Shown here: positions 23,892-37,512 of the stretch, in pieces
How the letters are laid out: every line of letters begins with the position of its first letter
Position numbering within the stretch: the stretch's first letter is position 1
Origin: Gammaproteobacteria bacterium
GTDB lineage: Bacteria; Pseudomonadota; Gammaproteobacteria; Steroidobacterales; Woeseiaceae
Length of the DNA: 51,435 nucleotides
Assembly (NCBI GenBank): GCA_018677555.1
Contig: JAHHOT010000130.1
Span: 1 to 51,435, forward strand
Reading direction: 5' to 3'
Made by a program: the position numbers and the translations under genes
Notes under the pieces: generated by a model
The model's database searches: none
What the model was told of the DNA's origin: nothing
The model's input: the letters and a program-made list of their open reading frames with translations, nothing else

Positions 23892-25268
23892 CTAGAAGCC
23901 GGACTGGCGCTGCGAGTCGTCGTACATGCGCGTGAGGAAGTTGCGTATGGCCGGCTCCGCCTCCGTCCGCGTCATTAACTTCTGCTGCTCGAACAGCGTG
24001 GCCATGTCGATGATGGAGCGTTTGCCGTCGATCAGAGACATGATGAAGGTGTAGATCTGTGTTGACATCGCCTGCGTGCGAAACGACTGCGTCAGCGGCA
24101 CCGGTTCCTTGCCGGTGACAATCCAGTCCGGCAATGCAACATGGCGTTTTGGCGGCTTCATTTTTCGGATCTTGCGCGCGGCAAACGAGAACACCGTTTC
24201 AAAGCGGCCGTGCCGGCTGGCCGGCGAACACATGTAGGGAATGACCTCCTCGTGCGTGACCGGCTTGTCGAAACCGCGTTCGTCGACGATGGCCAGCGCC
24301 TCTTCGGGGCTGTAGCAGCGGGCGGCCTCCGGGTGATCGAACGCCAGCGACCCGAAATTGATCCAGCGGCCACCCTCCGCCAGCAGGTTGCCGATGCGCG
24401 CGGCAAACGTCGCAAAGTCCTCGGAGATGATATCGATCAGCCAGGGTGTAATGACGGTATCGAACGCGCCGGCGGCAAACGGCGGACGCAGCGCGTCGCC
24501 GAGCACGAAGTGCAGACCCGGACCAGCCGCGGCGGGTGCCGCGAGCTGCCGTAATACAGCGTAGTCATCGATCGATTTCGGCGCGATCGGAAATTCGTAC
24601 ATGTCGAGGGTTTTCCCCGCGCTTGCCGCCTGCGCAATCAACAGCAGCAGCGGATTGAAATCGCTCGCAAGCGTTGCAGCTGGCGCGAGCGACGTATGCA
24701 CATCGTAGGCAAGGCGACCGGCACCGGCGCCGAGCACGAGCGTCGTGCCGAGGTCGCGCTCGTCGCCCAGGACTGTTTCGATTTGCCGCAGGGACGCCGC
24801 GTTTTCCTCGTCGCCCCAGGACCAGTCCCTGTGCACGTTCGAGTAGTAGGTATTCAGCCCCTGGTCCGGCGGCAGGCGCGTCCGCAACGCGAGATAGGTC
24901 TCGTAGCTTGCCGGGTCCGACTGCACGTCGAACGGCGCAAGCAGTTTGCGCAGGCGGTCGCGGTGTTCTTCCGTGGCCTTCTTATGCTGTTCCAGCCGCT
25001 GCCGCGTCAGCGCGCCAAGGTCGTCGCGCTCCAGTTCCTGCCCGGTTTTCTGTGCACGGTGGGATAACTGCTGAAGCGCAAAGTGCAGCCGATTGCGCCA
25101 CTCACCAAGCGCTGCCTCCGGTTCGGCGAATAACCACGGCATGCCGCTGACCATCGGATACTGCGATTTGCAGGCTTTGCAATGTAACTCACTGCCACGC
25201 GGCTCGAGCGGCGACTTGTCGCAGCGCGGGCAGGCGAGTAGTTCATGCAAAGCGTCGTCGAGCGGCAT
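23892..25268 (-). CDS. N2227-like (carnosine N-methyltransferase-type) SAM methyltransferase with zinc ribbon
   Basis: A 458-residue protein in three parts. First, a Trm112-like zinc ribbon with C13, C16, C30, C33. Second, an N2227/CARNMT1-type methyltransferase: YYSNVHRDWSWGDEEN, then LVLGAGAGRLAYDV for SAM, FDTVITPWLIDIISED, and WINFGSLAFDH as in the eukaryotic enzyme that makes anserine from carnosine. Third, a C-terminal PqqD-like helical segment with IDGKRSIIDM. ATG 25268 fits where the zinc ribbon begins; a GTG at 25316 would add 16 residues. A carnosine-like substrate in bacteria is not established, so the acceptor is unknown. Confidence 0.8.
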   Translation of the reverse strand: MPLDDALHELLACPRCDKSPLEPRGSELHCKACKSQYPMVSGMPWLFAEPEAALGEWRNRLHFALQQLSHRAQKTGQELERDDLGALTRQRLEQHKKATEEHRDRLRKLLAPFDVQSDPASYETYLALRTRLPPDQGLNTYYSNVHRDWSWGDEENAASLRQIETVLGDERDLGTTLVLGAGAGRLAYDVHTSLAPAATLASDFNPLLLLIAQAASAGKTLDMYEFPIAPKSIDDYAVLRQLAAPAAAGPGLHFVLGDALRPPFAAGAFDTVITPWLIDIISEDFATFAARIGNLLAEGGRWINFGSLAFDHPEAARCYSPEEALAIVDERGFDKPVTHEEVIPYMCSPASRHGRFETVFSFAARKIRKMKPPKRHVALPDWIVTGKEPVPLTQSFRTQAMSTQIYTFIMSLIDGKRSIIDMATLFEQQKLMTRTEAEPAIRNFLTRMYDDSQRQSGF

Positions 25269-25413: not shown

Positions 25414-27039
25414 CTACGTTGGATTGAGGGGTCCAATAGTGCCGCTCACGATCTGCTCGAATGCCGTCAGGCTGTCCCTGAGATTGGCGTCGCCGAGACC
25501 GTGATTCGGGAAGAGCGTTGCGAAGTTTCCTTCCTCGCCGTGTAAAGCCATGTAGTTCAGGATTACGGTGTTGACGAGAAGGTTGACGTTATTCGCCGCG
25601 GGCGTGGCCGCGCGTTGCACCGAGGCGCCGGCATCGAAGTAACCGATCTGCTGATGCACCGCCTGTTCCTCGGGCGTCGCCCCGCGTAGCAGCGCGCGCC
25701 CGGCAGGGTTGAATACCATGAAGAACCCCGCCGCTGTCGAGGAGTTGTCGCTCACCCACTCGCCCTTGCCGCGACCGTCGACCGAGTTGTCGATAGTGCC
25801 ATCGCTCGACAGCGAGCCGTCACTGAAGACGTACATCATCAATGGCGTGCCGATACGCGCCGCGTATTCGATACAGGCGCCCATGCAGCGGCCGGCGCGG
25901 AAGTCCTTCACTTCGCCCTCGGCCCGCGCGCCGCCGTGATAATCGTAACCGCCCATCTCGATGACCGCGGCGCCGGCAAAACCGTTGATCACCAGTTTCA
26001 TCACTGAAGCGGTCTTGCGGAATTCGCTGCCGTCGCGCCCGCCGCCGTTAAATTCGGCATCGGTGAAGATTCCGGTCGGACCGACGATCATCGGGTCAAG
26101 GCCCGGATCGAGTGGCGTGGCACCGAAGCGGTCCGCGATGTCGGCTGATTTGAGGTAGCCGCAGCGCACCATGTCCTTGACGACATCGCTGGCACCGATC
26201 GTCTGACCGGCGTCGACGTTCGTCATTTTCTCCGCGCTGATGCGATAGATCGATTCCATCACTGCCGTCGCGTCCGATGGCCCGAGAATGCCGACCAGTT
26301 GGCCGGTGTCGACCAGGCCGGTCACGTCGCTGGGCCGATCGACCTTTGTAGGACGCAACTCGGGATCCATCATCGCCGCAGGAATCATCGAGTTGCCGCC
26401 GGAGTCGGTATTCTCGCTGCCTGCGAGCGTCAGTATCGAACCGTCGGCGCCCGCGGTCGCGATGCCGTACAGCGGGTTGTGCGGATTGTTGCCGGTGTCG
26501 TTGTCCGAACGCGCGGGAATGATCGCCCCGTTGAGCTGCGCGCCGCGCCCGGCTGACATGCTGGCCTCCATGCCGCGTTTGAATGCGCTGTCGGAATGAA
26601 ACGCGAGGCCGAAATCGGTGTTCGCATAGGGCAACCCGGTAAGCGGGTCGTTGAGGCCCGGCACCATGTCGCCTGGCAGGCCGACTTTCTCGTATCCCGC
26701 GGTACTCAGGAAATCCATTTGTCCGCCCTGCTGGCCGACGAGCACGTTGGAACCGGCGATGTTTGCGCCGCCTGCGAGGTCGAATGCGATGAACGGGATC
26801 TTGCCGGCGCCCGACGTCGCAATGTTGCAGGGATTGGCCAGGAGTGGCTGCAGGTCGCTGGACAGCGCCGCATGGGCCGCGCGCGGATTCGAGAACAGGC
26901 TCAGAATTCCGCCGCCGAGCGTCAGTGCGGAGCCGGTCAGGAAGCCCTGCGAAACGAAGTCTCTGCGAGTAATGGGACGTGCATGATCCGCGTGCCGCAA
27001 CGGGTCATCGTATTTGCGGACGTTTCTTTTCTTAGCCAT
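25414..27039 (-). CDS. Tat-exported DUF1501-like protein
   Basis: A 541-residue protein with a twin-arginine signal: RPITRRDFVSQGF near residues 22-34 followed by a hydrophobic stretch ending in AHAAL. Folded export across the membrane is therefore expected. In the mature part, FIAFDLAGGANIAG, VIEMGGYDYHGG, and MMYVFSDGSLSS resemble the DUF1501 (alkaline-phosphatase-like superfamily) pattern, in which Asp/His residues may bind metal. No CXXCH is present. It is last in a three-gene operon with CXXCH proteins, 28 bases after the LamG gene; this pairing echoes planctomycete cytochrome-DUF1501 pairs. Enzyme function is unknown. Confidence 0.75.
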   Translation of the reverse strand: MAKKRNVRKYDDPLRHADHARPITRRDFVSQGFLTGSALTLGGGILSLFSNPRAAHAALSSDLQPLLANPCNIATSGAGKIPFIAFDLAGGANIAGSNVLVGQQGGQMDFLSTAGYEKVGLPGDMVPGLNDPLTGLPYANTDFGLAFHSDSAFKRGMEASMSAGRGAQLNGAIIPARSDNDTGNNPHNPLYGIATAGADGSILTLAGSENTDSGGNSMIPAAMMDPELRPTKVDRPSDVTGLVDTGQLVGILGPSDATAVMESIYRISAEKMTNVDAGQTIGASDVVKDMVRCGYLKSADIADRFGATPLDPGLDPMIVGPTGIFTDAEFNGGGRDGSEFRKTASVMKLVINGFAGAAVIEMGGYDYHGGARAEGEVKDFRAGRCMGACIEYAARIGTPLMMYVFSDGSLSSDGTIDNSVDGRGKGEWVSDNSSTAAGFFMVFNPAGRALLRGATPEEQAVHQQIGYFDAGASVQRAATPAANNVNLLVNTVILNYMALHGEEGNFATLFPNHGLGDANLRDSLTAFEQIVSGTIGPLNPT

Positions 27040-27067: not shown

Positions 27068-29566
27068 CTACTGCACCAGCGTCACTGCGCTGCCGGTGAC
27101 AGCGGCACATACCGCCTTCGCAATTGCGCGTGTGTCCGGGTTGTCCGGGCTCGACAGCAATCGGTCGATCAGGTTATCCGGACGAACTCCGTTGGTCGTG
27201 AAGAAACCGAGTTCGTCCTGCACCGTCACGAAGTCCGGCTGTGTCTGAATCGCGATGCCCATCGCGCTGTCGATCAGCGGTGTGATGATCTCGTTTCGCG
27301 CTGCGCCGGCATAAGCGGCAGCTGGCGCCTGGTTGAAATCGAAATTGTTGAAATACGCCGCCGCCATCGCCGCGTCCTCGACCAGCGCGTTGCAGTACTC
27401 GATAGCGAGTTGCGCAACGGCAACCTGGTGCGATGACAGGAACGCCTGAGGGTCCTCGATAGCGGGCAACGACTGACGCAGATTCTGAAAGGTCATGTCG
27501 ACAGCAGTCGTCTCCGGATCGACACCGGTAACGGCGGCGAGCGTGGCATTGATCTCGTCGAACGTCCGGATACCGATGCGCTGTGCCTGCGGCAGATCCG
27601 ACGCGGTAATTACCAGCGGCGGATCGTCCGTGCGCACGTACGATGCAGTGCCAAGCAGGTCGAAGGTCAGGAAGAACTGGTCGTCGTCCGGGCCCTGCTC
27701 GAGCGGCACGATGGTGCCGAGGTCGGACAGGGGCTGGCCCAATTCAGCGAACAACGATGCGCTCAGCGTCTGGTCCAGATTCGCATAGGCCTGGCTGATC
27801 GGCACTTCCGCGCCGTTGATGCCGATTCGCATGCCCTGCAGCGGAATCCCTTCCGGTTGCTGCGCAGCGTCCAGCGTAATGAAATGCGGCTTGTCGAAAA
27901 GGTAGCTGTAGCTGTCGTACTGCGCTACCTCGAACAGGATGTGCGCAGACGGCACATTGATGATGTCTTCGATGCCGAACAGCAGGTAAAACTTCTCGCC
28001 AACGCCGACGTCGAAGTTCTGCACGATCTGTGCCGGTGTCAGCGCGCGATTGTGTACGGCGACCAGGCGCAACGTGCCTGCAAACGAACCGTCGTTGGAT
28101 GCCTCGTTGCCCAGTACCAGGGCAAACGTATCCTGCCAGTCGACCAGCGAACCGGTCGGAATCGGATCCGTTTGCGTGACCAGCTGGCCATTGACGTAAA
28201 TGCTGCGGCCTTCGACCGGGCTGTACACCGCGACGACATGCTGCAAGGTTGCCTGCAGGACTTCATCAGCGTCCGGCGTAGACAGCTGCGGATCGCCGTT
28301 CAGTCCGGTTTCCGTGCTGCGGTGCCGGAAGTCGTAGTTGTAAAGCGTTTGTTGCAGCGTGAAGTTCCGCGCGGTGTCGCCCGCCGAGTAGCTGACGATA
28401 CGCGCCATCTCTTGCGTGACATTGGCTGGCGCAACCCAGGCTTCGATCGTGTACTCGCCGGTCGCCTGGACCAGGTCGTGCAACTTTTTGCTGGCGGAGG
28501 TTGTGCCCTGTGCCTTGCCGTCACCGATATTGATGCCCCAGCCGCCGACCCACTCGACTTCGCCCGACAGTGTCAGGTCGATAGCAGGTTCGACACCACT
28601 CGTGTCGAATGCCGTGAGGCCGGTTCCGGTCTTGAATTCCCACAACGCGATCTGTGAGGACTCGAAGCGATTGCCGCCGGATGCGACCGTCCCATCGATG
28701 ATGCGCAGCGCCTTGCTGTTCACGAGGGTCGGATCGAACGGCAGCAACGGAATGGTTGCGGCGAAATCGGTGATTGCCTGCTGCATGTCACCAGCGTCGG
28801 TCGGGCAGCTGTTGGTCCAGCAGTTGTGGAACTCGTCGCGCAGACGGACGACAAAACGCGAATCCGCCGGGGTGTTGATGTCCATCCTCGACTTCGCAGC
28901 GTCGAAAGCCACATTGGCGTCCGCTTCACCGAAGAACGGGCTCTGAGCCGTCGGTGCCGACGATGAATGGCAGCCTGCGCAGTAAGTTGTGAGGTATGGG
29001 CCGTGCACCATGGCGGCAAAGTTCGCAACGTCCGCGTTCACGTAGCTCAGGCTCGCGCCGGGATCGACCGGCGTCGGTGCCTCGAGCGCGATCTGGCGGC
29101 CACCGCCCGCAGCCGATCCGGACCAGTTTTCGATCCAGGTCGTCATGATGTCGGCGCAGGCCGCGTCGTCGGTCAGCCAGCAGTTATGTCCGCTGCCGAC
29201 CTTGGAAACCAGCCGGGAATCGGATGGTTGTGTGAGATCGACGACGCCGTTCGCTGCTTCGTAGGCAAGGTTGATGTCGTCGTTACGCGCGAACATCGGA
29301 TTCTGGCCGGTGGTGTTGTTGTGGCAGCCGCCGCAGCGGTTGCTGGCCTGCACGTTGTCCCAGACGTTCAGCTTGAACGCCTGTATGTCACCTGTCAGCG
29401 CCGGCGGACCGTTGTAGTTCGCTGTGGGCGTCACGCTGGTGACCGGGTTGTCGGCCGTCTGCGCGCCGCCGCCGCAGGCGGTCAGCACGATTAAACTCAG
29501 TCCGGTGCCGAGAACGATTTTCATGTTACGGGCCCCGGTCATCACACAATTCATTAGCTTGTACAT
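27068..29566 (-). CDS. Lipoprotein with two cytochrome c-like modules and a LamG domain
   Basis: An 832-residue protein. The start ATG 29566 has GGGAGG eight bases upstream. Lipobox LTAC gives lipidated C31. Two similar modules follow, each with CXXCH (CGGCH 78-82; CAGCH 196-200), a shared SRxVxKxxxxHNCW-like segment and a closing cysteine; HNCW may supply a sixth heme ligand. A LamG/concanavalin-like jelly-roll spans roughly 310-490 (ASKKLHDLVQATGEYTIEAWV, IYVNGQLVTQTDPI). The C-terminal 300 residues are predicted beta-rich then helical and are not recognised. This suggests a surface or periplasmic heme protein that binds a carbohydrate or polymer. It lies between a CXXCH protein and the Tat-exported protein. 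Confidence 0.78.
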   Translation of the reverse strand: MYKLMNCVMTGARNMKIVLGTGLSLIVLTACGGGAQTADNPVTSVTPTANYNGPPALTGDIQAFKLNVWDNVQASNRCGGCHNNTTGQNPMFARNDDINLAYEAANGVVDLTQPSDSRLVSKVGSGHNCWLTDDAACADIMTTWIENWSGSAAGGGRQIALEAPTPVDPGASLSYVNADVANFAAMVHGPYLTTYCAGCHSSSAPTAQSPFFGEADANVAFDAAKSRMDINTPADSRFVVRLRDEFHNCWTNSCPTDAGDMQQAITDFAATIPLLPFDPTLVNSKALRIIDGTVASGGNRFESSQIALWEFKTGTGLTAFDTSGVEPAIDLTLSGEVEWVGGWGINIGDGKAQGTTSASKKLHDLVQATGEYTIEAWVAPANVTQEMARIVSYSAGDTARNFTLQQTLYNYDFRHRSTETGLNGDPQLSTPDADEVLQATLQHVVAVYSPVEGRSIYVNGQLVTQTDPIPTGSLVDWQDTFALVLGNEASNDGSFAGTLRLVAVHNRALTPAQIVQNFDVGVGEKFYLLFGIEDIINVPSAHILFEVAQYDSYSYLFDKPHFITLDAAQQPEGIPLQGMRIGINGAEVPISQAYANLDQTLSASLFAELGQPLSDLGTIVPLEQGPDDDQFFLTFDLLGTASYVRTDDPPLVITASDLPQAQRIGIRTFDEINATLAAVTGVDPETTAVDMTFQNLRQSLPAIEDPQAFLSSHQVAVAQLAIEYCNALVEDAAMAAAYFNNFDFNQAPAAAYAGAARNEIITPLIDSAMGIAIQTQPDFVTVQDELGFFTTNGVRPDNLIDRLLSSPDNPDTRAIAKAVCAAVTGSAVTLVQ

Positions 29567-29579
29567 TGTCGATGCCTCC

Positions 29580-30806
29580 CTACTGGCCCATGCAGTAGAC
29601 GGCCGCCTCGGCGAACGTCTGTTTCATGCGGTAACCGGCCTTGAATGAGGTGACCATGGTCGTGACCTGGTCGCGATCGGCCTGGTTCTCGGGTTCGCGC
29701 AGGCAGACCGCGCGAAAGACCTTCTTCACCTGGCAGTTGGCGAACGCGTCGCTGTTGCCGAGTTCCTCGCCGAGCGACTTGGCGCCAGCGCCGCTGCCCG
29801 GCAGCGTCGGATCCCAGCCGAGGAACTGGTTCTGTCCCGAACGCCAGTAATTGCTCCAGCTGTCGTCCGGCGTGCGGAAACCCGGCTCGAAGTTGGCGTC
29901 GTTGTTGAAGTACTTCGGCTGCACGGTGCCCTGCGTGTATTCGATCGAGCCCGTGGTCTCATTGAAGTTGTAGTACGCGAAGGCCTGTGCCATCGGGTCC
30001 ATGCCGCTGTGGCAGCCAATGCAGTTGTTCAGGAAAAGGCGGCTGTCGCCGCCGGGGCTGCGGCTGACGTCCTGGCGAATTCGATCCGGCGGCCGCTTCA
30101 CGTCATGCACCTGCTCCATGTCGTTGCACAGGTGGTTCAACATCGTGAAGCGGAACATCGCCCGGTTTGTGCCGGCGACGAAAAACGCCTCGGCGGCGGC
30201 GCGCGTGGTCATGGCGCCGGCCGTAGCAGTCGATGGCAGGCCGGTTACGGCCGACTGGGTGGTTCGATTCAGCCCCGTCAGCATGTCCAGGCCGTTGGCC
30301 TCGAGCTGCTCAAAGTGATCGTTGTTGTTGTTCGAGTACGCGGGCAGGCCGAGCGAAGCGTCACCTACGTACAACAGGTCAGCGGACAGCAGCGTGTTGA
30401 AAGGCTCGTCATCGCGAACCATGCCGACGACCAGCGCAATGTAGTCGTTCAGTGGTACGAACACGTTCTCGTCGCGGTTGGTCCACGGCGCCGCGAAGTT
30501 CTTCAGCGTCACGTTATAAAAACTGGGGTTGTCCATGGCCGTGAACGCAGCCGCCATCGGGTTGTTGTTCTGACCCGGATCGACGTCCGCCTCCATCGAT
30601 TGCAACACGGTCTCGGTCGGCGGTACGCCCGCCAGCCGGTCGTGAATGCGTTTGGCCTGTTCCCTGGGCCCGGCTTCGGCAACCGAAATCGCTCCTGCAC
30701 AAAGAAAACCCAGTGCGGCAAGCCGGAGAATCCATCCAGGATTCTCACGCTGGCTCGCGCTTTTCGTTATTGTCCACGTCCTGTTTTCCATAACACTTCT
30801 GCTCAT
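29580..30806 (-). CDS. Exported mono-CXXCH protein
   Basis: A protein of about 408 residues. The N-terminus contains a hydrophobic stretch (LRLAALGFLCAGAISVAEAG), so it is exported. One heme-binding motif, CIGCHSGMDPMAQAF, lies at 262-266, with CXXCH followed by MDP as in DUF1588/DUF1592-type cytochromes. Downstream cysteines (NCQVKKVFRAVC) may form a disulfide. The exact start is uncertain: ATG 30806, ATG 30791 or an upstream TTG (30821) are all possible and no ribosome-binding site is convincing. It is first in the left operon, with the next gene starting 13 bases downstream. Confidence 0.72.
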   Translation of the reverse strand: MSRSVMENRTWTITKSASQRENPGWILRLAALGFLCAGAISVAEAGPREQAKRIHDRLAGVPPTETVLQSMEADVDPGQNNNPMAAAFTAMDNPSFYNVTLKNFAAPWTNRDENVFVPLNDYIALVVGMVRDDEPFNTLLSADLLYVGDASLGLPAYSNNNNDHFEQLEANGLDMLTGLNRTTQSAVTGLPSTATAGAMTTRAAAEAFFVAGTNRAMFRFTMLNHLCNDMEQVHDVKRPPDRIRQDVSRSPGGDSRLFLNNCIGCHSGMDPMAQAFAYYNFNETTGSIEYTQGTVQPKYFNNDANFEPGFRTPDDSWSNYWRSGQNQFLGWDPTLPGSGAGAKSLGEELGNSDAFANCQVKKVFRAVCLREPENQADRDQVTTMVTSFKAGYRMKQTFAEAAVYCMGQ

Positions 30807-31962
30807 TGCCAATACAATCAAACAACGTGCTAAAAAACTGCGGCCGGGCAGCGGTCTACTAACCGATACTCGTCGCGTGAGAACTGGAGGGGATAGAGTG
30901 TTCGCGTAGATACGCTACGACTTGTCCACCTTACTCCTGGCAGTTCTGCTGTCTCTTAGCGGGTGACAAAGTCACCGGCCCAAGATCGGTTGCCATGCGT
31001 GGCCGCTGAATACCCTGTCGGCGACCATGCCTTTTCAGACGTCCGTGTTGTTAGAGGTTCTTCCCTGAACAATCTGCAACTGTCAGCAGGTGGACTATCT
31101 TCCAAGCTAGTGTGCACTCAGTTCGCATAGAAGTCCGTGAAAACACTCACATTCGTCAAGAACTTCGAGAACGTCGTACACGTTCGCATTCGATCTGCCA
31201 GTGATAAAGCAAGTGCTGTGCCAGCCTGATCCAATAATCGATTTTTGTTCAGAATTGTTAGGCCGGTCAAAACCTTACGTGCAAGAACCGCCGCCGGTTA
31301 AATCACGATATATGTCAAGCACTTGTCGGTGCATTCGTACACTTGTGGGCGTAATTGACCTGAAACGCTGACCAGGCGCGGCTTCTGCCATGTCGCGGAA
31401 AGCAGACACAATCGCTTCATTGCGACACCGCGAAAAAATTTTCTGAATTTTTTTGTTGGAACGCGTCACAAAATTTCCTTGCAGATTAATGCCGAAACGT
31501 GCGCGCGTTGTTTTTTGGCAAACGCGATGGAACAAAATTGCGCGCGCGATCGTTTTCAAACACGCGAAAACATTGAGTGTGGCAGCGTAGTTGACATATC
31601 GGATGTTTAGTTAAATGGATTTCAGCGTCTCGTGGCGTACTTTGTCGTACTTTCGAGACATTACATTGCAAATTTATATTTCCTAGACTGATGCTCAGGT
31701 TAATGCAGCATGTGTGCGCGCGACGATGAGTGAAGCGTCGCAGAGACAAAGGCCGGATCCAGCCAGTGGCTTCGCCCGACCCTCCAGCCACTGCCGGTTT
31801 AGTGTGATCGCGTTAACGGTAAGAAGTGTGCGTTAAGTTCAATATTGCTGGCTACTCAATAGTGGAGTGATGCGCACTGATTTTGTGGGACGTCTGCAGG
31901 GCATGGAGTTGCTGCAGCGGGTAGGGATACCCGCAGCTCACACAGGAATTGAGGTGCAGGTC
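30807..31962. other. 1.15-kb noncoding divergent promoter region
   Basis: No convincing gene is present. Composition is visibly richer in A and T than the flanks, with runs such as GAAAAAATTTTC (31431-31442) and TTTTTTTG. Several small inverted repeats occur: GGTGAC-AAA-GTCACC at 30962-30976 and AGTGGCT/AGCCACT at 31765-31792 with a 14-base loop. A TTGACA at 31591 is a possible -35 for rightward transcription, but no matching -10 could be fixed. GAGGTG at 31951 is the ribosome-binding site of the right operon's first gene. The length suggests several regulators or a nucleoid protein acting on two divergent operons. Confidence 0.5.
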
Positions 31963-34677
31963 ATGGATATGTTTTCACGGCAGGTCATGGATGAATGTCT
32001 GCGGGCAGCGGCGCGATGGACTGCGCCGCTGCTCGCGTTTGTGCTGGTTGCGGGCTGCTCCAGCGGCGAGGGCGTGCAACTGGGGACCGGACAGGATCCT
32101 GATCCGGTCATCGTCGATTTTCCAATCGCTTACGTCAAGGCACCGTTGCCGGTCGATGACAACGGGGATGTCATCCAGACGGATGCGCGCGAATTGATCA
32201 CCTTCAATTTCGGCGCGGATCTCTATTATCGCGACCGGGCGTCGCCGAGTTCCGAGGACATCAATGTCACCGAACGGGTCACCGGCGGCCTGGGCGCCAT
32301 TCGCGACGTCGAGATGTCATACGACGGCAGCACTGTCTTGTTCGCCATGCGTACCCCGGTCGACCTCAATCTCGATCTCGATGACGAGGATCAACCGACC
32401 TGGAATGTCTGGGAGTACGTATTCGAAACCGATACGTTGCGCCGCGTCATCTCCTCGGACCTGTCAGCCGAGATCGGCCACGACATCGGACCCCACTACC
32501 TGCCGGATGGCCGCATCATTTTTTCCTCGACCCGCCAGGTCCGCTCAAACGCGGTGCTGCTCGATGAGGGCAAACCGCAGTTCGAGGCGCAGGACGAGGA
32601 CGAGAACGAGTCCGCATTCCTGTTACACGTGATGAACGCCGACGGTACCGGCATAGAGCAGGTGTCGTACAACCAGAGTCATGACTACGACGCGACGGTG
32701 CTGGACAACGGCCAGGTCGCATTTTCCCGCTGGGATAATGCTGTCGCCAACGACGCGATCAATCTCTATCGCATGAACCCGGATGGGTCCAACCTCGAAT
32801 TGCTGTATGGCCAGAACAGTCACGACACCGGCACGAACGGCGAGACCATTCAGTTCCTGCAGCCGCGACAGCTCGAGGACGGCAGAATAATGTCGATTAT
32901 CCGGCCGTTTACCGACACCTTCGGCGGCGGCGACATCGTCGCGATCGATACGCCGGTGTACGTGGAAAATACCCAGCCGAACATGGACAACCCGGGTATG
33001 AGCGGCCCGGCGCAGGCGGCAGCAACGATCAATGCGGTTTCGACGGAAACCGGCGTGCCGTCACCCGGCGGGCGCTACAGCTCGGTTTACCCGATCCAGG
33101 ACGGCACCGGACGGCTGATGGTCAGCTGGAGCCAGTGTCGGCTGACCGATCCGCCGGATCCTAATGCAGATCCGAACAACCCGCCGCAGCCCGTGTACTA
33201 CCCGTGTACGAGCGAGAATCTCGCCGATCCGTTGCTGATCGAGGCCGAACCGCTATATGGCATCTGGATTTACGATCCCGCCGACCGCACGCAGCAGCCG
33301 GTCGTCGTTGCGGAACAGGGGTTTATCCATCCGGAGGTTGTGTCGGCAGATCCTCGCGCGCTGCCGCCGGTGATCCTGGATTCGCAGGACCAGTTTGACG
33401 ACGATCCGAACCTGGTCGCGGAAAATGCCGGCGTCATCAGCATTCGCAGCGTCTATGATTTCGATGGCGGCGCTGTCGCCGATATCGCGGCGCTGGCCGA
33501 TCCGGCGCAGACCATGGCCGACGAACGCGAAGCGCGCTTCCTGCGGATCGAAAAAGCCGTATCGATGCCCGACGACGATGTGCTGGATTTCCGGGACACC
33601 GCCTTTGGCCGTATTCGCGCTCTTGGAATGCGCGAGATCGTCGGCTATTCGATGATCGAGCCTGACGGCTCCGTGATGGTGAAAGTGCCGGCCAACGTAG
33701 CGCTGGCGATCAGCGTGCTCGATGCCAGCGGCCGCAGGATTTCGCCGCGGCACAATAACTGGTTACAGCTGCGTCCGGGACAGCTCCTGAAATGCAACGG
33801 TTGCCACGACCCGGCGAGCGGCATGTCGCACGGACGCTACGACGCGTTCGCCAGCGCCTGGGCCGGCGCAGCAACGGCATCGATCCCGTTCCCGAATACC
33901 GACCCGGCGTTGTTTGTCGGGGAAGTGGGCGAAACCATGGCCGAAGTCCGCGCGCGCGTAAGCTGTGCCACGGACAACTGTTCTTCCATCGACCCGTCGG
34001 TCGATCTCGAATACGACGACGTGTGGACCGATGAAGTCGCCGCCGGACGTGCCGCCGATGACAGTTTCGATTACTCGTATGTCGACCTGACAACGGCGCC
34101 GCCGACTACGACGGGCTGCATGACCCAGGGCTGGTCTGCGAACTGCCGCATCACGCTCAACTACGAGACGCACATACACCCGCTCTGGGCAGCAGAGCGG
34201 CCTGTTCTGGACCCGGTAACGGGGCTGCCGGTCATCGACCCGGTGACCATGTTGCCGGTAACGAACAACTGCACCAATTGCCATACACCGGTTGACTCTG
34301 CAGGCGCTGCGATGGTGCCTGCCGGTCAGCTGGATCTCACGGATGGAATCTCGCTGGACGAAGCAGATCATTTCAAATCGTATCGTGAGCTTCTGTTCAC
34401 AGATTTCGAACAATTTGTTGACGCTAACGGGGTGTTACAGGATGTAATGGTGCAAACCGGCGTGGATGTCGATGGAAACCCGATTTTCTCGCCGGTTGAC
34501 GTGAATCCCTCTATGAGCGCTGCGGGCGCTAACGCATCGCCTGTCTTTCTCGACAGGTTCGAAGCCGGTGGGACGCACGACGGGTATTTATCTGACGCGG
34601 AGAAAAAATTGATTGCGGAATGGTTAGATGTCGGAGCGCAGTATTACAACAATCCCTTCGACGCTCCGATTAATTAG
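31963..34677 (+). CDS. Hydrazine-synthase-alpha-like propeller lipoprotein with two CXXCH motifs
   Basis: A 904-residue protein from ATG 31963, which has GAGGTG six bases upstream; the frame is open to GTG 31867 without support. Lipobox VAGC gives lipidated C32. The first 550 residues contain TolB/PD40-type propeller repeats: IRDVEMSYDGSTVLFAMR, HYLPDGRIIFSSTRQ, VMNADGTGIEQVSYN, MNPDGSNLELLYG, typical of the HzsA-like middle domain. Two heme c motifs, CNGCH (611-615) and CTNCH (770-774), lie in the C-terminal part. Real hydrazine synthase is not implied; HzsA-like domains are widespread. First gene of the right operon; the next gene starts inside its 3' end. Confidence 0.78.
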   Translation: MDMFSRQVMDECLRAAARWTAPLLAFVLVAGCSSGEGVQLGTGQDPDPVIVDFPIAYVKAPLPVDDNGDVIQTDARELITFNFGADLYYRDRASPSSEDINVTERVTGGLGAIRDVEMSYDGSTVLFAMRTPVDLNLDLDDEDQPTWNVWEYVFETDTLRRVISSDLSAEIGHDIGPHYLPDGRIIFSSTRQVRSNAVLLDEGKPQFEAQDEDENESAFLLHVMNADGTGIEQVSYNQSHDYDATVLDNGQVAFSRWDNAVANDAINLYRMNPDGSNLELLYGQNSHDTGTNGETIQFLQPRQLEDGRIMSIIRPFTDTFGGGDIVAIDTPVYVENTQPNMDNPGMSGPAQAAATINAVSTETGVPSPGGRYSSVYPIQDGTGRLMVSWSQCRLTDPPDPNADPNNPPQPVYYPCTSENLADPLLIEAEPLYGIWIYDPADRTQQPVVVAEQGFIHPEVVSADPRALPPVILDSQDQFDDDPNLVAENAGVISIRSVYDFDGGAVADIAALADPAQTMADEREARFLRIEKAVSMPDDDVLDFRDTAFGRIRALGMREIVGYSMIEPDGSVMVKVPANVALAISVLDASGRRISPRHNNWLQLRPGQLLKCNGCHDPASGMSHGRYDAFASAWAGAATASIPFPNTDPALFVGEVGETMAEVRARVSCATDNCSSIDPSVDLEYDDVWTDEVAAGRAADDSFDYSYVDLTTAPPTTTGCMTQGWSANCRITLNYETHIHPLWAAERPVLDPVTGLPVIDPVTMLPVTNNCTNCHTPVDSAGAAMVPAGQLDLTDGISLDEADHFKSYRELLFTDFEQFVDANGVLQDVMVQTGVDVDGNPIFSPVDVNPSMSAAGANASPVFLDRFEAGGTHDGYLSDAEKKLIAEWLDVGAQYYNNPFDAPIN

Positions 34678-35416
34678 AGGGATCGCGGTGCTGGTCGCGT
34701 TGCTCGCCCAGTCCGCCATGCCTGCGACGGCCTATGCCGCCGGCGAATACAGGACGGTGTCCGTAGCGGATCCGTTTCTCGAACTGCGCACGGGGCCGGG
34801 CCGCGGCTACCCTGTGTTTCACGTCGTCGACCGTGGCGAAACCGTGGAAGTCATCAAGCGTCGCACCGATTACTTCCTGGTGCGCACCGACCGCGGCAAG
34901 GAAGGCTGGGTGGATCGCGACCAGATGGAGCTCACCATCGGACCCACCGGTGTGCAAACCGTTTTCGCTGCCGCGACCCAGCAGGATTTCACCAACGCGC
35001 GGTGGGAAATGGGCCTCCTCGCGGGCGATTTCGGTGGCGCGAACATCGTTTCGCTGTACGGCGGGTATTCGCTCAACCCGAATGTCTCCGTAGAGGTATG
35101 GGGTTCACAGATTTTGGGAAATTTTTCGAACGGCTGGATGGGCAGTGTTAACGTCGTTCATGAGACCTGGCCGGAATGGCGGATTTCCCCGTTTTTTACG
35201 CTCGGCACCGGAGTAATACATACCCAGCCGAAATCCACCATCGTTCAGGGTGAAGACAGGACCGATCAGATCGCTCACGTAGGCGCCGGTTTCCGCATTT
35301 ACGCAACGCGCCGTTTCATACTCAGGGCGGAATACAAAAGCTACGTGGTGTTCACGAGCCGCGACGACAACGAGGAAGTAGAGGAATGGAAAGCCGGTTT
35401 CGCTTTCTTCTTTTAG
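34628..35416 (+). CDS. Exported SH3b domain plus outer-membrane barrel-like protein
   Basis: A 262-residue protein overlapping the previous gene by 50 bases. A signal sequence (about residues 14-38, ending TAYAAG) is followed by an SH3b domain: VADPFLELRTGPGRGYPVFHV and VRTDRGKEGWVDRDQME. The rest, about 110-262, is strand-rich and ends in Phe (AGFAFFF), resembling an eight-strand outer-membrane barrel. SH3b domains often bind peptidoglycan, so this may link the barrel to the cell wall. GGAATGG precedes ATG 34628. Overlap with the next gene is 31 bases, indicating coupling through the operon. Confidence 0.75.
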   Translation: MSERSITTIPSTLRLIRGIAVLVALLAQSAMPATAYAAGEYRTVSVADPFLELRTGPGRGYPVFHVVDRGETVEVIKRRTDYFLVRTDRGKEGWVDRDQMELTIGPTGVQTVFAAATQQDFTNARWEMGLLAGDFGGANIVSLYGGYSLNPNVSVEVWGSQILGNFSNGWMGSVNVVHETWPEWRISPFFTLGTGVIHTQPKSTIVQGEDRTDQIAHVGAGFRIYATRRFILRAEYKSYVVFTSRDDNEEVEEWKAGFAFFF

Positions 35417-36072
35417 CAGTACTGCTGCAGGCGTTCGCGCTGAGCGGTTGTGCGGCTACGAAGAACCTGTTCGGCATGGGCAAGAAGGAATCTGCACCGG
35501 CGCCGATAGAGGTCCCGGACCAGGTGATCGATCCCCAGGTCGAGCGGCGCGACATCAAGGAGCCCGCGATCGACACCGAGGACTTCGAGATCGGTGCCTT
35601 CGCCGGCATCCTGTCCATCGAGGATTTCGGCAGCGATGCCGTTTACGGCATGCGGCTCGCTTATCACGTCACCGAGGGGTTTTTCGTGGAAGGCACTGCG
35701 GCACAGTCGGAGGCCGGGCTTACCAGTTTCGAGATTCTGAGCGGCGGCGCGCCAATTTTGTCTGACGACGAACGAACCTATACCTACTACAACCTCAACG
35801 TCGGCTATAACGTGCTGCCGGGTGAATCGTTTATCGGGGACCAGCGAGCCTACAACAACAGCCTGTTCCTGATCGCCGGCCTGGGGTCGACCCGGTTCGC
35901 CGGTGACGACCGGTTCAGCGTGAATTTCGGCTTCGGCTACCGGTTCGTGCTCAACGATTCTGTCAGCTTGCGGCTCGATTTCCGCGACCACCTGTACGAC
36001 ATCGATCTTCTGGGAGAGGAAAAGACCGTGCACAACCTCGAAGGAACGCTGGCGCTATCGGTTTTCTTCTGA
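35386..36072 (+). CDS. Outer-membrane beta-barrel lipoprotein
   Basis: A 228-residue protein. A lipobox at ALSGC gives lipidated C22. An acidic linker (about residues 35-66) leads to a barrel-like domain from EIGAFAGILS through LAYHVTEGFFVEGTAA, YNLNVGYNVLPGE, FGFGYRFVLND and a terminal VFF. The pattern matches the outer-membrane beta-barrel (TIGR04565-like) family often found beside SH3b-barrel proteins. The start overlaps the previous gene by 31 bases. It likely acts in the same envelope complex; the exact job is unknown. Confidence 0.75.
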   Translation: MESRFRFLLLAVLLQAFALSGCAATKNLFGMGKKESAPAPIEVPDQVIDPQVERRDIKEPAIDTEDFEIGAFAGILSIEDFGSDAVYGMRLAYHVTEGFFVEGTAAQSEAGLTSFEILSGGAPILSDDERTYTYYNLNVGYNVLPGESFIGDQRAYNNSLFLIAGLGSTRFAGDDRFSVNFGFGYRFVLNDSVSLRLDFRDHLYDIDLLGEEKTVHNLEGTLALSVFF

Positions 36073-36121
36073 GGCAGCAATCACGGAAGAGGGCGCATTG
36101 CGCCAGGCTTGGAGAATGGAC

Positions 36122-36358
36122 ATGAACACAAGCAAATTTTCACGGATGTTACTGGCTATGGCAGTCCTGGCGAGCCTGTCGGCTTGCAGCGGCATCGAGC
36201 CCTGGGTCAAGCCGTACGAACGGGACCGGCTGGCAGACCCGATCATGTTCCTGGACGGGGACCCGGTGTCGACGGCTTATATTCAGCACGTATTCGAAGC
36301 CCGTGAAGGCGCACGAGGCGGCGAGGGTGCGGCAGGAGGCGGCTGCGGTTGTAACTGA
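36122..36358 (+). CDS. DUF4266 lipoprotein
   Basis: A 78-residue protein with signal and lipobox (LSAC, lipidated C22). WVKPYERDRLADPIM and YIQHVFEAREGARGG followed by a C-terminal GGGCGCN are the DUF4266 signature; the terminal Cys pair may bind metal or cofactor. GGAG is seven bases before ATG 36122, so it is preferred to the earlier ATG 36116. DUF4266 genes are usually followed by DUF3570, as here. No thioredoxin-like or ApbE gene is adjacent. Confidence 0.87.
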   Translation: MNTSKFSRMLLAMAVLASLSACSGIEPWVKPYERDRLADPIMFLDGDPVSTAYIQHVFEAREGARGGEGAAGGGCGCN

Positions 36359-36375
36359 GCCGCAGGTTTGTCGCG

Positions 36376-37512
36376 ATGCACTGCTATAGCAAAAAGACCA
36401 TTCTTCTCCTGGCGCTGCTCCTGGGCGGGCAGTCCGCGGTGGCCGGCGTATTGCCCGATGACCGGACGGACTTTTTGTATCACCGCTACGAGGGCGGCGG
36501 CGTGCTTATCGACGGCCCGTCGGTACTGGTGCGCAAGAAAGTCGGCAAGAGTGTTTCCTTCGTCGGCAACTACTACGTGGATAGCGTGAGCTCGGCGTCG
36601 ATTGACGTGGTAACGACCGCCAGCCCGTACAGCGAAGAGCGCAAGCAACACTCGCTGGGTATGGATTACCTGCGAGGCAACACGACGATGACACTGGGTT
36701 ACACGAGCAGTGTCGAGAGCGATTTCGATGCGACCACGTACAGTATCGGCATCAGTCAGGATATGTTCGGCGACCTCACCACCCTGTCGCTCAGCTATGC
36801 TTACGGTGACGACATCGTCGGGCGATCCGACGACCCGTTGTTCGAGCGTGAGAACACCCGCCAGCACTACGGCGTCGGGCTGACGCAGATCCTGACCCGC
36901 AATCTCATTACCTCGCTGAACTTTGAGACCATTACCGACGAGGGATTCCTGAACAATCCGTACCGCTCCGTGCGCTACCTCGATTCTTCGACCCCGATCG
37001 GCTACAGCTTCGAACCGGAATTGTACCCGGGCACCAGGACAACCAACGCGATCGGGCTGCGTGCGCGGTACTACCTGCCGTGGCGCGCCGCACTGCAGAC
37101 CGAATACCGATTTTTCGATGACACCTGGGACATTCGCTCGCATACCGCGGCGATTTCCTACACGCATCCGTGGCGCGACTTCACCTTCGAAGTGAAATAC
37201 CGCTGGCACGATCAAACCGGCGCGCATTTTTTCAGCGACCTTTTCGACCGCGCGGAAGCCACCACGTTCCGCGGCCGCGACAAGGAACTGAGCCCGCTCA
37301 CCAGCCAGACCGTCAAAATGTCGGCTGCCTACGAGTTTCTCGACGATGGCTGGAGCTTCCTCGACCGGGGGTCGGTCACACTGGCGGTAGATCTTCTGCA
37401 CGTCGACTACCACGACTTCCGCGACATCCGCGGCAGCGAGCCACCCGGCACGGAGCTGCTGTATCAGCTTGATGCGTACGTCTTCCAGCTGTTCTTCTCC
37501 TTCTGGTACTAG
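36376..37512 (+). CDS. DUF3570 outer-membrane protein
   Basis: A 378-residue protein with a signal peptide (residues 6-23, ending SAVAG). VLPDDRTDFLYHRYEGGG at the mature N-terminus, strand-rich repeats and aromatic-terminated strands (LFFSFWY) support a beta-barrel of DUF3570 type. It starts 17 bases after the DUF4266 stop and closes the right operon. The family is often paired with DUF4266 and predicted to work at the outer membrane; function is unproven. Confidence 0.87.
   Translation: MHCYSKKTILLLALLLGGQSAVAGVLPDDRTDFLYHRYEGGGVLIDGPSVLVRKKVGKSVSFVGNYYVDSVSSASIDVVTTASPYSEERKQHSLGMDYLRGNTTMTLGYTSSVESDFDATTYSIGISQDMFGDLTTLSLSYAYGDDIVGRSDDPLFERENTRQHYGVGLTQILTRNLITSLNFETITDEGFLNNPYRSVRYLDSSTPIGYSFEPELYPGTRTTNAIGLRARYYLPWRAALQTEYRFFDDTWDIRSHTAAISYTHPWRDFTFEVKYRWHDQTGAHFFSDLFDRAEATTFRGRDKELSPLTSQTVKMSAAYEFLDDGWSFLDRGSVTLAVDLLHVDYHDFRDIRGSEPPGTELLYQLDAYVFQLFFSFWY

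Follow-up and report, generated by a model that had tools for sequence, protein, structure and literature searches.

A predicted bacterial methyltransferase of the CARNMT1 lineage is genetically tied to a Tat-signal protein and co-varies with residues around its GGxDYH motif

Introduction

The closest described relative of the enzyme considered here is CARNMT1. CARNMT1 is an established protein-histidine methyltransferase. Its E229 is a SAM residue whose mutation inactivates the enzyme, and of four CARNMT1 peptides, three required a Phe at position -2 (PMC12275196). Two further papers describe how D316 binds the imidazole, while H347 restrains imidazole flipping and bears on N1 selectivity (PMC6971037, PMC6400499). 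The CARNMT1-type enzymes described in the literature that we searched come from eukaryotes. A branch in bacteria whose genetic partner is defined would offer a simple system in which to test the purpose of histidine methylation, because related lineages with and without the enzyme occur naturally.

Two other kinds of described system resemble parts of the locus analyzed here. Trm112-activated methyltransferases place a Trm112-like ribbon beside a class I methyltransferase, and one of them, Mtq2-Trm112, which acts on the GGQ motif of eRF1, is described as a protein methyltransferase (PMC7708063). Planctomycete-type cytochrome pairs (PSCyt2/PSCyt3 with DUF1552 or DUF1501) combine an exported uncharacterized protein with an adjacent DUF1588/DUF1585-type haem protein and LamG. 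Such pairs have been described in Verrucomicrobia, with their function uncharacterized, and unlike the operon reported below, the cytochrome-pair passages of that paper mention no methyltransferase (PMC5615132).

Here we analyze a methyltransferase gene (MT) within a window of 51,435 nucleotides, by which we mean the whole stretch of DNA that was examined. The nearest named relatives of the genome that carries it are Woeseiaceae MAGs, and the source bacterium is a relative of common seafloor bacteria. The MT sequence is best read as a cytoplasmic SAM-dependent methyltransferase that belongs to the lineage of CARNMT1 (carnosine/protein-histidine N-methyltransferase) and whose activity is predicted. 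The catalytic family, ribbon, and tail that we assign to it are of known kinds, while the bacterial fusion, the genetic partner, and the co-variation between the two appear to be new with respect to the literature searched; this search, made mostly outside subscription papers, found no description of the enzyme or of its pairing with the partner.

Table 1. Coordinates of the methyltransferase gene, its parts, and the neighboring genes within the window.
Feature	Position	Strand	Details
Methyltransferase (MT) gene	23892..25268	minus	458 aa; ATG at 25268, stop at 23892; final gene in operon
Trm112-like zinc ribbon	25155..25259	minus	residues 4-38 (C13, C16, C30, C33); Trm112p PF03966 25.4 bits, cut-off 22
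CARME/N2227 core	24246..24839	minus	residues 144-341; Pfam CARME PF07942 32.9 bits, cut-off 27
D279 codon	24432..24434	minus	equivalent of CARNMT1 D316, from PDB-profile alignment
PqqD-like helical tail	23922..24050	minus	residues 407-449; PqqD PF05402 12.3 bits, under cut-off 23.4
Partner ("DUF"), twin-arginine-signal protein	25414..27039	minus	541 aa
Partner GGYDYHG segment	25906..25959	minus	residues 361-378; invariant D366, H368; co-varies with MT
Second, weaker co-varying partner segment	25750..25809	minus	residues 411-430; adjoins (near-)invariant D407, D431
LAMG, LamG-domain protein	27068..29566	minus	832 aa; Laminin_G_3 E 3.2e-22; two CxxCH haem motifs
PSD, one-haem protein	29580..30821	minus	413 aa; CIGCH; distant DUF1588/DUF1585-type planctomycete cytochrome
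HZSA, HzsA-middle-domain protein	31867..34677	plus, divergent	936 aa; HZS_alpha E 1.9e-13; two CxxCH

Results

A CARNMT1-Like Core Between a Trm112-Like Ribbon and a Helical Tail

The open reading frame of the MT is real and its coordinates were correctly given in a preliminary description of this DNA, which left its strand, the minus strand, unstated (Table 1). That description had placed the central domain in the N2227 family, and profile searches bear it out. The core scores above the Pfam cut-off, CARME is matched in all 33 MT homologues at E ≤ 1 (Pfam, homologue alignment), and a PDB search with the profile of the 33 homologues returns human CARNMT1 (5yf0) as the top match (E 2.9e-8), far ahead of the best generic methyltransferase in the same search (E 0.1).

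The MT shares with CARNMT1 the CARME core, an RDW segment that precedes this core, and the imidazole-binding Asp. This residue, D279, is invariant (33/33 homologues) and aligns with the Asp of the CARNMT1 FFID segment; we assign this Asp and the His of the LLYH segment to D316 and H347, respectively, because of the 31-residue spacing between them. Unlike in CARNMT1, the position equivalent to H347 varies among MT homologues, with an Asp at position 311 of the window MT and a His in two of the 33 homologues. An invariant Asp of the MT, D203, falls in the region of CARNMT1 E229, and since the two stand two columns apart in the alignment, D203 is a candidate equivalent only. The MT further differs from CARNMT1 in its added Trm112-like ribbon and PqqD-like tail, and in being bacterial, operonic, and tied to a Tat-signal partner. 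Structure models of the MT and its partner, each computed from the window protein and two relatives, were too poor for use (mean pLDDT 37 and 31).

The proposal that a Trm112-like ribbon is fused in cis at the N-terminus is also upheld by Pfam, with a window score above the Trm112p cut-off (Table 1) and, at E ≤ 1, matches in 16 of the 33 homologues. The window MT and 26/33 homologues have the complete set of four ribbon cysteines. One of the other seven has no such segment in the alignment, and most of the remainder retain the segment with some cysteines replaced. This incomplete set in 7/33 homologues indicates that metal (zinc) binding looks dispensable to the family. The MT thus differs from Trm112 systems in that its ribbon is fused in cis, its cysteines are partly or wholly missing in several homologues, and its core belongs to another family.

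PqqD and RRE domains use strands to bind leader peptides, and a resemblance of the MT C-terminus to PqqD had been noted. Part of this resemblance holds. PqqD is matched in 27/33 homologues at E ≤ 1 (best 6e-4), and the C-terminal profile of the MT aligns with six PqqD-domain sequences over 42 columns (HHalign 92.7%), but the window tail scores under the Pfam cut-off, the similarity is confined to the helical half (IDGKRSI..MA..), and the leader-binding strands were undetected. The PqqD-like tail is therefore the weakest element of the domain reading, plausible but partial. The further suggestion of a peptide or small dipeptide substrate found no support, as no recurrent short or precursor-like ORF was found in 42 PSD-HZSA intergenic regions, where the largest linked group comprised eight loci of unlike sequences. 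Evidence from gene order, co-duplication, co-occurrence, and residue co-variation instead favors the Tat-signal protein whose gene lies directly upstream.

Operon Organization and the Tat-Signal Partner

The order PSD-LAMG-partner-MT is repeated in relatives, and the source genome itself holds the entire operon in three copies. Other genes replace the divergent HZSA upstream of two of these copies and of one copy in genome G008. The N-terminus of LAMG is lipoprotein-like as judged by eye, and PSD2 is matched in 16 of 19 PSD relatives at E ≤ 1 (best 1.8e-5), with the window PSD itself below the cut-off. Genes in other genomes were predicted by a simple codon-usage script rather than a published gene finder. 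The HZSA cluster has 23 members among the compared loci, divergent from the operon. A second operon type (L035 1-3200, L036 1-4900, L046 1-4200) has a protein of 757-837 aa upstream in place of HZSA, with a C-terminus that appears barrel-like by eye, accompanied by a protein of 145-188 aa that appears lipoprotein-like, also by eye.

No Pfam or NCBIfam family was found for the partner, and its 23 examined members gave no DUF1501 or DUF1552 Pfam match. Motif and context had hinted at DUF1501 (PF07394) or DUF1552 (PF07586). We rejected DUF1501 at an HHalign value of 2-3% and a local match to GGxDxH or the signal only, and DUF1552 at an HHalign value of 0.2% against four sequences. Of 114 partner rows, 109 have a twin-arginine pattern within the first 80 residues. 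Tat cargo folds in the cytoplasm before export, and the twin-arginine pattern therefore makes the partner the sole operon protein that should reach its folded state in the cytoplasm, the expected location of the MT. Three histidines of the partner (H368, H148, and H187) are (near-)invariant both with and without the MT. We read the GGxDYH region as a probable active or metal site because of its invariance and its Asp/His content.

Distribution of the Methyltransferase and Its Partner

Among 246 genomes of the order, searched at E ≤ 1e-30, the MT occurs in 99 and the partner in 133, and presence of the family in so many genomes takes the observation far beyond chance. Both proteins were found in 87 genomes, the MT only in 12, the partner only in 46, and neither in 101, a co-occurrence with a Fisher value of 1.6e-19 in which relatedness and genome incompleteness are ignored. 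In 60 of the 87 genomes with both, the MT lies no more than 600 bp behind the partner and shares its strand; in 12 it lies up to 8 kb downstream, and in 15 it lies elsewhere or across contig ends.

Within a class sample of 274 genomes, the partner was found in 35 and a match to the MT profile in 52. The core is matched in six of these 52 (G000, G009, G271, G102, G262, and G096), and the other 46 matches cover the N-terminal part only. The three-gene module is thus more widespread than the MT, which makes the MT an accessory to the module. PF07942 was matched at E ≤ 1e-6 in one of 398 sampled phylum genomes (the source genome) and in none of 14 controls, a phylum count that is a lower bound because at this threshold the model misses the window's own copy.

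Three genomes from a single genus (G055, G722, and G732) carry an MT, with neither the partner nor PSD detected in them. Here the MT is divergent from a pair consisting of a DUF1552 Tat protein and a PSCyt3 cytochrome (L055 6470-10719, L282 3896-9508, and L283 8549-13901; the cytochrome is DUF1587/1592/1595/1588/1585), which was identified by Pfam in G055 and by similarity in G722 and G732. Because these genomes hold 14, 16, and 12 DUF1552 matches, respectively (one of the 12 short and below cut-off), the single inherited adjacency of MT and DUF1552 is suggestive only. In genome G035 (97% complete), in which the partner and PSD were not found, the 3' part of an MT gene (query residues 231-457) lies inside a contig (L066 8265-9041; contig C38, 203271-203951), an apparent case of decay following operon loss.

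Partner Residues That Change With the Methyltransferase

A first comparison of 28 MT-linked with 19 MT-less partners yielded eight discriminating columns, all of them within residues 361-430 of the 541. The set was then enlarged to 120 partners by the addition of 69 from the order, comprising 49 with a linked MT, 15 with an MT elsewhere, 50 without an MT, and six at contig edges. Linked here means up to ~3 kb apart and includes G778 and G813, whose two genes were placed together by inference over contig ends. The six contig-edge partners (three T and three G at residue 369) were excluded from the counts with (MT+) and without (MT-) the methyltransferase, L034 was omitted as a duplicate of L045 from the same genome, and partner fragments (G776, G788, G881, and G910) and a second copy in G835 were left unused.

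The surroundings of the partner GGxDYH motif depend on the presence of the MT, and this extends to most genomes in which MT and partner are unlinked. Residue 369, which directly follows H368, is Gly or Gln in 62/64 MT+ rows (49/49 linked and 13/15 unlinked) and Thr, Asp, Asn, or Ser in 49/50 MT- rows, or 46/47 when L094, L113, and L116, which lie within ~330 bp of a contig end, are removed. The exceptions are G271 and G262, which have Thr with an MT (the MT match of G262 ends before the tail), and G834, which has Gly and in which no MT was found. At residue 371, 48/50 MT- rows but 2/64 MT+ rows have Asp, Glu, Thr, or Asn. A second, weaker switch is seen at residue 378 (25906-25908), which is Lys in 43/64 MT+ rows and Arg in 48/50 MT- rows.

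To relate these patterns to descent, a partner tree was built without columns 355-436; partners from additional MT+ genomes in the family to which the window belongs are not part of it. We count 14 changes of the MT and 11 of residue 369 on this tree. Seven independent pairs lie on well-supported branches, of which 4-5 are concordant, none is discordant, and 2-3 show no difference (median p 0.0625). One pair is congeneric, with G838 encoding an MT and G369 and G800 encoding no MT and D369. A likelihood scan of dependent vs. independent change, covering 495 of 503 positions, ranks residue 369 first (LR 58.8) and residue 371 second (52.7), followed by 415, 430, 427, 374, and 377, so that the top seven columns all fall within 369-430. 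The same data-driven choice of residue groups was applied to all columns, which keeps the ranks fair but not the nominal p-values.

The adjacent LAMG served as a control on 80 shared taxa, with the partner's own tree used for both proteins and likelihoods computed for columns that differ enough in make-up (33/502 in the partner and 75/800 in LAMG). Partner residues 369 and 371 reached LR values of 51.3 and 45.7, compared with 24.0 for the best LAMG column, and stricter labels (77 taxa) gave 50.0, 44.5, and 26.8, respectively. For the 80-taxon set 30 of 31 LAMG genes were found, the LAMG gene of G839 being the one not found. Only 369 and 371 clearly exceed the LAMG background, with 427, 374, and 430 close to the LAMG maximum. 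An earlier control with ~50 taxa, in which partner and LAMG each reached a maximum of 20.4, had too little power to discriminate.

A scan for a target residue specific to MT+ partners found no His, Lys, Cys, Asp, Glu, Arg, Tyr, or Trp at 80% of MT+ rows, with the exception of a Tyr/Phe preference at 365 and an Arg preference at 448. Since no candidate residue is gained with the MT, a target on the partner would be common to both kinds of partner, with H368 the first to consider.

Discussion

The difference in the exported partner's probable active site according to MT presence suggests that the MT modifies or serves the partner. Judged from these sequence patterns, the partner is probably the main partner of the MT and its probable substrate. 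The protein-histidine activity of CARNMT1, the MT-dependent motif, and cytoplasmic folding together make methylation of the partner near H368 before export the simplest account. We therefore propose, as a tentative reading to which we give slightly less than an even chance, that a cytoplasmic protein methyltransferase modifies the active-site region of the partner before Tat export. The partner would fold in the cytoplasm, and the MT would dock on the folded protein, perhaps via its ribbon and tail, and methylate a conserved residue in or beside the GGxDYH motif, for which H368 is the first candidate. The methylated partner would then be exported and act together with the operon's two haem proteins. 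We infer the active-site role of GGxDYH, the methylation itself, the partner's place as substrate, the modified residue, and the partner's function from these patterns of conservation, co-variation, and gene context.

Several observations count against parts of this proposal. H368 is also invariant in MT- partners, and no Phe stands at -2 before it, the residue that most of the CARNMT1 peptides needed. Most partner genomes of the class sample are without an MT core (35 vs. six), and the MT of G055, G722, and G732 has no detected partner. The exceptions at residue 369, the variable H347 position, the p-value above 0.05 for the independent pairs, and the closeness of columns 427, 374, and 430 to the LAMG maximum also weigh on this side. 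A bolder version of the proposal, which we regard as doubtful, describes a bacterial protein-histidine-methylation pathway in which a ribbon-bearing CARNMT1-lineage enzyme would methylate H368 of a Tat-exported enzyme, and lineages that gain or lose the MT would rebuild the His pocket, from Thr/Asp to Gly at +1 and from acidic to small or basic at +3.

In the main rival to partner methylation, the MT would act on a small molecule or peptide, such as a histidine derivative, whose methylated form the exported partner uses as substrate, ligand, or cofactor, and the partner's active site would have adapted to that methylated ligand. This account explains the operon, the co-occurrence, and the co-variation equally well, accords with the founding activity of the CARNMT1 family on the dipeptide carnosine, and fits the persistence of the MT in a few genomes without a detected partner. 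The methylated ligand would need export, however, and the operon encodes no transporter (wider flanks were compared by clustering only); we consider the account unlikely. Somewhat less probable again is that the co-variation reflects clade history, with residues shared by descent from an MT-bearing ancestor while the MT acts elsewhere. The tree shows strong clustering of the MT and of residue 369 alike, in 2-3 of the seven independent pairs a difference in the MT is not accompanied by one at residue 369, the test on these pairs gives a median p of just 0.0625, and G834 (G369 without an MT) and G271 and G262 (T369 with one) break the pattern. Yet the remaining 4-5 pairs agree and none is opposite, the congeneric genomes G838 and G800 differ as the association predicts, and the adjacent LAMG carries no signal of such strength on the same taxa.

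The accessory domains invite two further explanations. The Trm112-like ribbon would suit an enzyme with tRNA, rRNA, or a translation factor as its target, like the enzymes that partner with Trm112, and the operon link would then be incidental or regulatory. Such a role is hard to reconcile with the patchy occurrence of the MT in the order (99/246 genomes), its linkage to and co-duplication with an export operon, and its co-variation with the partner, and we think it very unlikely. The PqqD-like tail similarly recalls a RiPP-like tailoring methyltransferase whose tail binds a leader peptide, but with the PqqD match spanning the helical half only and the 42 intergenic regions between PSD and HZSA yielding no precursor-like ORF that recurs, this appears the least probable explanation of all.

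The link to the MT also provides a first functional handle on the haem/LamG/Tat module, whose partner protein is widespread in gammaproteobacteria, both in the order and across the class sample. On the 3' side of HZSA the window encodes, at 34628-37512 on the plus strand, two outer-membrane-like proteins, the first of them also SH3-like, and a probable porin of 378 aa with a C-terminal FSFWY, all as judged by eye, and these three proteins and the haem proteins may form an outer-membrane route. Copies like the two outer-membrane-like proteins adjoin HZSA in relatives.
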